Below, piece after piece: positions 5,325 through 8,070 of a stretch of 23,961 nt of DNA. Position 1 is the first letter of the stretch. Each line of letters starts with the position of its first letter. The translations under genes were made by a program, and so were the position numbers. This stretch comes from a virus. Below the pieces are notes generated by a model. That model did not search any database. It saw nothing but the letters and a program-made list of their open reading frames with translations, and was not told where the DNA came from. Where the stretch lies: positions 1-23,961 of IMG/VR virus record IMGVR_UViG_3300044970_000329; one strand, written 5' to 3'.

Positions 5325-5389
5325 AAAAACCTGCGAACAGTCTCGGCGTGACTGCTGGAAACGCCGAACCCTTGGTGACTGTTCGCAGG
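5325..5389 (-). terminator. Branched terminator-like hairpin upstream of csrA
   Basis: A perfect 13-bp inverted repeat (5330-5342 with 5377-5389, arm sequence CCTGCGAACAGTC) encloses a second perfect hairpin (TCGGCG/CGCCGA, 5343-5348 with 5362-5367). On the minus strand the long stem is followed at once by TTTTT and a further pyrimidine-rich run, the layout of an intrinsic terminator. It lies 35 bases upstream of the csrA start and closes the multi-hairpin region after the ParB-like gene. Confidence 0.75.
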
Positions 5390-6357: not shown

Positions 6358-6436
6358 TGACTGTGTTGGATTTGAACCAAGGCCAAAGAATGCCGTTCCG
6401 CAACATCCCCGCGTGTCCCACCACGCCGCACAGTCA
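6358..6436 (-). ncRNA. tRNA-like structured element (79 nt), not a standard tRNA
   Basis: On the minus strand an 8-bp stem TGACTGTG/CACAGTCA (6429-6436 with 6358-6365) closes the element. Abutting its 3' strand is a T-arm-like hairpin TTGG-TTCAAAT-CCAA with a seven-base loop that fits the tRNA B-box GGTTCAANNCC. A GCGTG/CACGC hairpin sits where a D-arm would be, and a GGATGTT/GGCATTC hairpin with a seven-base loop sits where an anticodon arm would be. The loop GCGGAAC lacks the usual U33, there is no encoded CCA, and the spacing is irregular. It looks like a decayed tRNA or a tRNA mimic in the 160-base gap before the ParB-like gene. Confidence 0.5.
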
Positions 6437-6614: not shown

Positions 6615-6879
6615 ACTTGTCTCTCCTAACTTGTTGAGCGTGCTTGATCGCGTCGCGTGACATTTCTTTTCGCAGGCATCCACATGACTTGGTTTCACCG
6701 TTTTGGATTCGGTGGCGTGCTGTCAGGATGACGTTTCCGCATTCACACCGGCACTTCCAAATCGGTCGCCCTCCGCCTCCTGACCGTCGAATCTTGATAA
6801 CTCCCAAGCAAACAATCGGCGTCAATCGCGAATCCTTATGTGGGACTGGTGGCTTCGACTTGCTTTGCGGAATGATCAT
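6598..6879 (-). CDS. Small Cys-rich putative DNA-binding protein (93 aa)
   Basis: The core reads WKCRCECGNVILTARHRIQN followed by GETKSCGCLRKE, a four-Cys knuckle found in many small phage proteins related to AP2/HNH-type DNA-binding domains. The N-terminus is basic and flexible, and the C-terminus is a basic helix. The ATG at 6877-6879 overlaps the preceding stop as ATGA. A regulatory or nuclease-accessory role is likely from the family pattern, but no HNH catalytic residues are seen. Confidence 0.72.
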   Translation of the reverse strand: MIIPQSKSKPPVPHKDSRLTPIVCLGVIKIRRSGGGGRPIWKCRCECGNVILTARHRIQNGETKSCGCLRKEMSRDAIKHAQQVRRDKYAAIK

Positions 6880-7232
6880 TTCCCGTCCTTTGCTTCAAAC
6901 AACTGCCCGCCATCTCGCTCCGCATCCAGCCGAATGCACAGGTCTTCGTTTCGCTTGATCTCGTCAGCCCGCTTCCGGAAGTTGTCAAGCTTCTTTGCGT
7001 ACTGCACAGGATCAACTTTGAGATCTGAGCAGAACCGATCACAGCACGCTTCAGCCAGTTCGTTTGATGTCATTGGCTGACCGTGTTGGCGGAGAACTTC
7101 CAAGCATTGCAGTTGACGGGCGGTGACTGTTGGCTGGATTCGTTCGGCGGCTTTCTGGCTTGTGATTGGATCGCTGTGGCGAGCGATTGGGGCCGTTGTT
7201 TCGGGGATGTCGAAGAGAGTGCGGTAGTTCAC
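6876..7232 (-). CDS. Winged-helix-like phage regulatory protein (118 aa)
   Basis: Starts with GTG at 7230-7232, overlapping the upstream stop as GTGA. The N-terminal part contains ARHSDPITSQKAAERI, a motif common in small phage proteins, then TARQLQCLEVLRQHGQPMTSNELAEA, which reads as a helix-turn-helix or winged-helix unit (about residues 37-62). The remainder is a charged helix. It is probably a DNA-binding accessory or regulator in the early operon; its target is unknown. Confidence 0.7.
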   Translation of the reverse strand: MNYRTLFDIPETTAPIARHSDPITSQKAAERIQPTVTARQLQCLEVLRQHGQPMTSNELAEACCDRFCSDLKVDPVQYAKKLDNFRKRADEIKRNEDLCIRLDAERDGGQLFEAKDGK

Positions 7233-7384
7233 GCTTTCCGCCCCTTAAAGTACTTTGCCGCGATCCGCCACAACACGCCCTGCCGACTTTCGCCGGTCTT
7301 TGCTGATTCATCCGCCAACGGCTTTTGCAGTTCCGGAGGAACACGCAGCAGCAGTTGAGGATTGCCTTTTATCTTTTTTTTCAC
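7229..7384 (-). CDS. Small ribbon-helix-helix-like protein (51 aa)
   Basis: Starts with GTG at 7382-7384 in a GTGA overlap with the 37-residue gene. A longer in-frame opening upstream exists, but it reads through the tRNA-like element and has no start signal. The product (MKKKIKGNPQLLLRVPPELQ, then a helix-turn-helix-like LADESAKTGESRQGVLWRIA) fits the Arc/MetJ ribbon-helix-helix pattern: a short β strand followed by two helices. A transcriptional regulator that could bind the TGATATCA sites near 8030-8070 is conceivable but untested. Confidence 0.65.
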   Translation of the reverse strand: MKKKIKGNPQLLLRVPPELQKPLADESAKTGESRQGVLWRIAAKYFKGRKA

Positions 7385-7494
7385 TTCACGTTCTCCAGTT
7401 CCTTTTTTAGCCGCAAGACTTCGGCGTGGTTGCCGTCGTGTTGGGCGTAAATGATGCGGGCTTGCAGGTTGCGAATTGTTGCGAGTGTTGGCAT
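7381..7494 (-). CDS. Very small hypothetical protein (37 aa)
   Basis: An ATG at 7492-7494 opens MPTLATIRNLQARIIYAQHD and the frame ends KKELENVK. The sequence is helical and amphipathic. Its stop is coupled to the next gene by GTGA. The start lies only about 15 bases downstream of the U-tract of the tRNA-like terminator element. No family is recognised. The coupling supports expression, and it may serve mainly to deliver ribosomes to the RHH-like gene. Confidence 0.5.
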   Translation of the reverse strand: MPTLATIRNLQARIIYAQHDGNHAEVLRLKKELENVK

Positions 7495-7508: not shown

Positions 7509-7579
7509 AAAAAGTCGCCAGTCCGGATTGAACCAGCCAAGGCCGGTGCAGCTTGCTTATGGCTGCACCGGACTGGCGA
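7509..7579 (-). ncRNA. tRNA-like three-way-junction element with terminator-like U-tract
   Basis: The minus-strand RNA forms a perfect three-way junction. An 8-bp closing stem (7572-7579 with 7515-7522) abuts a 10-bp perfect hairpin CCGGTGCAGC/GCTGCACCGG (7562-7571 with 7543-7552). After a CCTTGG linker comes a T-arm-like CTGG-TTCAAT-CCGG hairpin directly abutting the closing stem. One base later the RNA runs into TTTTT. An alternative fold extends the closing stem to 12 bp (7515-7526 with 7568-7579). It sits between a conserved early gene and the 37-residue gene and shares the closing-stem/T-arm layout of the element at 6358-6436. Confidence 0.6.
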
Positions 7580-7584
7580 GGGAA

Positions 7585-7953
7585 TCAGCACGCTACTGGA
7601 GCCGTGCAGATGTAAGGCTTATTCCATTTGCCAACATTGACCGAAAGATAATATGAGCAGTGAAAGTAATCGGTTTGCGAATCACTGCGGTCAAACCAGT
7701 CTTCGCTGTACATCGCTGCCACAAGTTCCGTCAAGAATGCTTTCGCTTCTGGACTGTAGCGTTCGCTTGTCTCGATGTGGTAGTGATTAACCTGAATGTA
7801 ATCACTTCCGAAATCGATTGAACCTGACTGAAGCGTGACAACCAGCGTTGAGTGATGACGAACGCCAATTGAACCCTTAACTCCATGCTTCTTCAAAACT
7901 GCCTTGATCGCTGGAGCCAACTTTGCTTTATCGTCTTGTGATACAAAAGCCAT
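7585..7953 (-). CDS. Conserved small phage protein, possibly LPD29-like (122 aa)
   Basis: The product begins MAFVSQDDKAKLAPAIKAVL and contains GSIGVRHHSTLVVTLQSGSI and a C-terminal SQTDYFHCSYYLSVNVGKW with NKPY. I recognise this pattern from a widespread small protein of phages and mobile elements, perhaps the LPD29 family, but its biochemical role is not established. The ATG at 7951-7953 has GGGGAG upstream. It is the first gene after the promoter at 8027-8054 and is followed by a terminator-like tRNA-like element, so it may be the most highly expressed early product. Confidence 0.75.
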   Translation of the reverse strand: MAFVSQDDKAKLAPAIKAVLKKHGVKGSIGVRHHSTLVVTLQSGSIDFGSDYIQVNHYHIETSERYSPEAKAFLTELVAAMYSEDWFDRSDSQTDYFHCSYYLSVNVGKWNKPYICTAPVAC

Positions 7954-8026
7954 CTCAATTTCTCCCCGAGGCTTGCGGCCTCACTTTGGTTTGCGTCCGA
8001 GTCACACACTGCGTCTCGATGCGGGC

Positions 8027-8054
8027 ATGATATCACTATCGGAATTGGCGTCAA
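8027..8054 (-). promoter_or_regulatory. Sigma70-like promoter for the early region
   Basis: On the minus strand TTGACG (8049-8054) and TATCAT (8027-8032) are separated by 16 bases, each one mismatch from the -35 and -10 consensus. Transcription would start near 8020 and give a leader of roughly 65 bases before the ATG at 7953. It lies in the largest clean intergenic gap (7954-8202) between the late cluster and the early genes. Confidence 0.65.
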
Positions 8055-8070
8055 TGGTTGGTGATATCAT
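8027..8070. repeat. Inverted TGATATCA operator-like pair
   Basis: ATGATATCAC (8027-8036) and GTGATATCAT (8061-8070) are perfect inverted copies, each containing the palindrome TGATATCA, with centres 34 bp apart (about three helical turns). One copy covers the predicted -10 element and the other lies just upstream of the -35. This is a classic layout for repressor binding, possibly with looping or cooperativity. The binding protein is not identified. Confidence 0.65.

Follow-up and report, generated by a model that had tools for sequence, protein, structure and literature searches.

A branched 65-nt hairpin followed by a U-tract, positioned just past the stop codon of an exchangeable early gene in this viral DNA, is probably an intrinsic (Rho-independent) terminator of unusual shape; we put the probability of this reading at about two in three. 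The window, that is, the whole 23,961-base viral record that was analysed, carries its structural and early genes on the minus strand, including those for the portal, head protease, major head protein, tape measure and helicase. The portal protein is only about 30% identical to the nearest named portal proteins, and no real match was found among known phage records.

Gene setting and relatives

The features surrounding the hairpin, in the order of transcription, are as follows.

8027-8054, minus: promoter TTGACG-16-TATCAT, the same in 47 of 47 related contigs tested
7960-8009, minus: leader, GTGTGTGACTCGG..GAGGCCGCAAGCCTC.., shared by all 13 contigs that bear the element and absent from 34 others
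7585-7953, minus: 122-aa gene of the PHROG 10415 family (a family without assigned function), the exchangeable cargo preceding the element
7515-7579, minus: branched hairpin of 65 nt, defined by the minimum free energy (MFE) and centroid structures, conserved pairing and a match to covariance model R1
7509-7513, minus: U-tract, one C after the stem and then UUUUU
7381-7494, minus: 37-aa ORF (MPTLATIRNLQARIIYAQ...), starting 14 nt past the U-tract and kept downstream of varying upstream genes
7229-7384, minus: conserved basic protein of 51 aa, encoded after the 37-aa ORF, with no Pfam match; used as the query to gather relatives

The stop codon of the 122-aa gene (7953-7585) ends 5 nt before the hairpin begins at 7579. 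Two TGATATCA repeats are found at the promoter, one overlapping it (8028-8035) and the other at 8062-8069. Essentially all relatives have such a pair flanking and overlapping the promoter (8072-8027, minus, in the window), an arrangement that, with the exchangeable first gene, resembles an early promoter under repressor control.

Copies of the element were located by means of the neighbouring protein, a loop pattern, a pattern for the 3' half and the covariance model. The 51-aa query recovered 49 related loci, 47 of which could be tested for promoter and element. Because near-identical contigs occur among them, the tallies count contigs and not independent events. The preliminary description of this DNA had proposed a search for the pattern in related phages, and about a dozen related IMG/VR contigs do keep the element. 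It is complete in 13 of the 47, each with a leader of the 7960-8009 type. Element and leader are both missing in 32 of the 47 and only the 3' half of the element is present in two, which indicates that the element is dispensable. The first gene behind the common promoter differs between phages and the downstream genes are the same. Three different genes occur between leader and element across the relatives, the 122-aa gene being swapped for others in L059/L066 and in L061/L062. In L042/L049, a junction falls inside the element. In sister phages, the place of the element between upstream and downstream genes is taken by other hairpins, some of them with UUUU, an example being GAGGCGGCTG..CAGCCGCCTC-ACTTTT in L065.

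This arrangement resembles phage moron cassettes (PMC7067206), in which an exchangeable small gene lies between a promoter and a terminator-like hairpin, and here too the gene is absent or replaced in sister phages, as expected of a non-essential gene. However, whereas in moron cassettes the promoter is carried with each cargo gene, in this case it is fixed at the locus in 47 of 47 relatives. It is the leader and the element that travel together in 13 of 13 contigs, around three different genes, with a promoter common to all relatives. The locus, an early-gene slot whose content is exchanged behind a fixed promoter, is a practical source of small phage proteins without assigned function.

Several other candidates were rejected. 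A chromosomal copy was sought among 84,980 genomes and the sole match, in a Solirubrobacterales scaffold, consists of a 21-base pattern only, without the stem. The viral matches to a loose pattern (L035-L038, L087 and L091-L109) were attributed to chance. A dispersed repeat or MITE was discounted, as there is a single copy per record in the records searched and no target duplication was seen.

Structure and stability of the element

The element (7579-7515, minus) reads TCGCCAGTCCGG TGCAGC CATAAGCAA GCTGCA CCGGC CTTG GCTGG TTCAAT CCGGACTGGCGA and is followed by C and TTTTT. Its parts, all on the minus strand, are listed below.

7579-7568 with 7526-7515, minus: closing stem, perfect 12 bp, 9 of them G-C, extending the 8-bp stem
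7579-7572 with 7522-7515, minus: 8-bp closing stem, TCGCCAGT/ACTGGCGA
7567-7547, minus: arm 1, TGCAGC-CATAAGCAA-GCTGCA
7546-7533, minus: arm 2, CCGGC-CTTG-GCTGG
7532-7527, minus: unpaired TTCAAT
7571-7562 with 7552-7543, minus: perfect 10-bp hairpin of the alternative fold, CCGGTGCAGC/GCTGCACCGG
7536-7523, minus: 4-bp hairpin of the alternative fold, CTGG-TTCAAT-CCGG, with one G-U pair and a 6-nt loop

All of the stems named in the preliminary description, the 8-bp closing stem, its 12-bp extension, the 10-bp hairpin and the 4-bp TTCAA hairpin, are present at the coordinates given there, on the minus strand, and the three-way junction joined to a U-tract that it described is real. The MFE of the element is -38.6 kcal/mol, compared with -23.1 +/- 2.9 kcal/mol for 200 dinucleotide shuffles, none of which was as good (z -5.4). 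The MFE, centroid and partition function calculations agree on one dominant fold, in which the 12-bp stem encloses two arms of 5-6 bp, one of them capped by CUUG. When the RNA from leader to element was folded, 11 of the 12 closing pairs had probabilities of 0.92-1.0.

The window was also scanned for hairpins with a stem of at least 10 bp, a loop of at least 20 nt and TTTT after the stem. Only two sites were found, 7579-7515 and 5389-5330, and each is on the coding strand. In Markov simulations covering the two strands of the whole window, 0-2 sites arose, about 0.55 on average.

Pairing is retained at 100% in seven distinct element sequences, and three arm-1 pairs have changed on both sides. 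Among close relatives, there are few differing positions overall, and the changes in arm 1 convert A-U to G-U or G-C. The loop of arm 2 occurs as CUUG, UUCG, UUUG or CUCG, always closed by C-G; C-G-closed loops of this kind are typical of stable tetraloops. A run of UUUU after the stem is invariant in all variants, followed by T, C or G, and L088 has UUUUUUUU at this place.

Evidence on the proposed branched terminator

The element is like intrinsic terminators (TransTermHP, Term-seq; PMC12207403) in having a stable G+C-rich stem, here of 12 perfect pairs, with U's right after it and a location just past a stop codon (5 nt here and 7 nt in L088). It is likewise one-directional, the other strand having no U-tract. 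It is unlike them in its two-arm three-way-junction apex, in a U-tract that is short in most copies and in its lack of compactness. The branched interior is 41 nt and the total 65 nt, whereas TransTermHP is limited to loops of 3-13 nt and stem-loops of at most 59 nt, and terminators mapped by Term-seq have a median loop of 4 (PMC12207403). These size limits are the detection limit of a program and no mechanistic requirement, although the element is still atypical. Since terminator programs allow loops of about 3-13 nt, branched terminators would be missed, or mistaken for tRNA-like or regulatory RNAs. A limited literature search found no description of a branched intrinsic terminator, an absence that is no proof of novelty.

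According to the proposed mechanism, RNA polymerase would start at the 8054-8027 promoter and transcribe the exchangeable gene (7953-7585) and then the 65-nt RNA. The two arms would fold first, and the halves of the 12-bp G+C-rich stem would then meet as the U-tract exits the polymerase. Closure of the stem would release the transcript or lower the flow into the downstream pair of 37-aa and 51-aa genes. The sequences establish the fold and its conservation through compensatory changes, the U-tract, the location past stop codons and the exchange of a gene behind a fixed promoter; that termination takes place at the element in the cell, and to what degree it is complete, we infer.

The chief weakness of the terminator reading is the short U-tract of most copies (CTTTTC or CTTTTG, four to five U's) together with the oversized hairpin. 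On a d'Aubenton-Carafa-type terminator scale, the copies of this lineage score about -5 to 0, near the threshold, versus 17.7 in L088. It also speaks against a terminator that same-strand genes resume 14 nt past the U-tract and that 32 of 47 relatives do without the element. Termination is expected to be partial in this lineage, given the four to five U's, and strong at the L088 copy.

The divergent copy in L088 is instructive. No protein match was found between L088 and the 29 window ORFs tested; the similarity to the window starts at the stem and stops in the U's, comprising the hairpin and U-tract and little else. To be shared alone in this way is how a self-contained terminator should be expected to look. 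Arm 1 is rebuilt and reads TGGCCC-CGCAA-GGGTCA, two of its pairs showing compensatory changes and a third having gone from C-G to G-U, and the stem is followed by eight U's. The loop CATAAGCAA was rejected as a conserved ligand or protein site, having been replaced by CGCAA in this copy. The L088 element lies 7 nt past a stop codon, where minus-strand ORFs end, and plus-strand ORFs face it. Most ORFs around it have no annotated relatives, so that a convergent gene arrangement is likely rather than certain.

Alternative explanations

A structured element of the 3' untranslated region, which would protect the mRNA end from 3' exonucleases or serve as a processing site for a stable small RNA, termination being a side effect or not occurring at all, is the alternative that we regard as unlikely but deserving of the most weight. 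The high stability, branching and conservation, as well as the short U-tracts of many copies, are consistent with such a role, and the same phages contain another branched RNA (T3, described below) that has a conserved arm and often no U-tract, which means that this lineage possesses branched RNAs that do not look like terminators. The invariant UUUU directly past the stem and the run of eight U's in L088 point instead to termination. Moreover, arm 1 is freely replaced, implying that no particular arm-1 sequence is required.

It is improbable that the element is chiefly a framing sequence, in which homologous recombination between leader and element swaps the gene between them and the hairpin is mainly shared sequence. 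The strict association of the leader with the element (13 of 13 against 0 of 34), the three different genes found between them and the L042/L049 junction within the element would all fit such exchange. However, it leaves the compensatory changes and the U-tract unexplained, and the lone L088 copy shares neither a leader nor a neighbouring gene with the window. Only slightly better odds are given to a switch or attenuator, in which a ligand, protein or ribosome would select between the fold with the 10-bp arm and that with the 12-bp stem. The two mutually exclusive folds of the preliminary description can both be formed. The four CCGG/CTGG blocks that permit them are invariant in all seven distinct sequences, L088 included, and the 10-bp hairpin would presumably form first during transcription. 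Nevertheless, because these blocks never vary, conservation is uninformative for choosing between the folds or for judging a switch. In the sequences tested, the alternative fold (8-bp stem, 10-bp arm and 4-bp TTCAA hairpin) lies 2.6-4.8 kcal/mol above the dominant one and should be rare, its predicted pairing probabilities being about 0.005 at most. The outer 8 bp abutting the U-tract are common to both folds, so that the switch first suggested would not toggle termination. A search of Rfam for riboswitches and other families gave no match at gathering scores, only a chance-level mir-3130 at E 6.

The element had also been described as a tRNA mimic akin to a tRNA-like sequence at 6358-6436, a reading that we consider extremely improbable. 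Like tRNA, tmRNA and viral tRNA-like structures, it has a stem closing over a junction and TTCAA near the 3' side, and in the less stable fold a TTCAAT loop does accompany the 8-bp stem. Unlike them, it has no T-loop, D arm, anticodon arm or covariance-model match, and it ends in a U-tract. In place of a 7-nt TTCNANN T-loop on a stable stem there is the 6-nt TTCAAT, which becomes TCCAAT in L004 and L088, and the TTCAA hairpin is predicted to form with a probability of about 0.003 at most. ARAGORN called no tRNA or tmRNA at the element in the window or in about 40 relatives, and Rfam detected no tRNA there at gathering scores or at E up to 10. The GGCCTTGG shared with the 6358-6436 element is confirmed in this window but is confined to it. 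Because positions in arm 1 and the arm-2 loop change among close relatives, it is not conserved, being replaced by GGCTTCGG, GGCTTTGG or GGCCTCGG. Within the window, covariance model R1 recovers the element itself and, weakly, its reverse complement and nothing else, thus missing the 6358-6436 sequence and removing the support for kinship.

Other large hairpins in the lineage

Two further branched hairpins lie upstream of a csrA-like gene in the direction of transcription.

5473-5399, minus: T3, branched hairpin with a 10-14-bp closing stem, candidate structured RNA
5330-5389, minus: T2, second branched terminator-like hairpin, with a 13-bp stem (CCTGCGAACAGTC/GACTGTTCGCAGG), two arms and then UUUUUCUCUC; precedes the csrA-like gene
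about 5290-5100, minus: csrA-like gene (Pfam CsrA, E 4.8e-12)

When 46 related loci were scanned, large-loop hairpins with a U-tract numbered 27 unique sites on the coding strand, three on the other strand and one in the Markov control. About six sequence families account for the 27, of which 18 have a two-armed fold. T2 is the commonest family and shares the layout of the 7579-7515 element. In its closing stem, four of 11 pairs have changed on both sides with pairing kept at 100%; its U-tract is strong, and so is its terminator score. The recurrence of one plan with several unrelated stem sequences in a single phage family suggests that branched terminators are commoner than annotated, and these naturally occurring hairpins could be used to study how RNA polymerase copes with a hairpin that is both large and branched.

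T3 contains a conserved arm, ACGGCTGGCCCCCGC..GCC, within closing stems of differing sequence. It was found as 31 stretches in IMG/VR, one apparently by chance, and Rfam at gathering scores gave no match to it in the window. It may be something other than a terminator, and since its U-tract is often missing, a branched hairpin of this lineage is not necessarily a terminator.

A broader and rather doubtful proposal is that the lineage regularly uses three-way-junction terminators, with unrelated stems of 10-15 bp, usually two arms and a U-tract, whose arms would dock a phage or host factor, such as an antitermination protein or the phage CsrA-like protein. Such docking would set the read-through from the exchangeable early gene into the operon.

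Additional observations

The tRNA-like element at 6437-6357 (minus) and the 257-aa gene that follows it (PHROG 5931, with a DGQHRL motif) form a unit spanning 6440-5535. L003 lacks the unit and has its two flanks next to each other. Across L016, L018, L019 and L022, identity is 99-100% for the element and about 91-97% for the flanking DNA. These comparisons suggest that 6440-5535 is a mobile unit, one end of which carries a structured RNA. Other tRNA-like sequences occupy the same slot in L006 (about 6760-6840), L071 (about 7100-7180) and L051/L075, an example being GAGTTGGTTCGATTCCAGCTC, closed by GCCACCG/CGGTGGT. ARAGORN called no tRNA in these slot sequences.

A small hairpin at 6469-6444 (minus) is also found in at least 16 related contigs, past the stop codons of varying genes. 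It has the form TAACCGG-cga-GNNC-AAGG-GNNC-a-CCGGAT, and its GNNC/GNNC stem varies on both sides with pairing kept. Just downstream of the tail genes, a 655-aa protein (12612-10645, minus) contains an FGE-sulfatase (formylglycine-generating-enzyme) domain and may be a receptor-binding or diversified protein.
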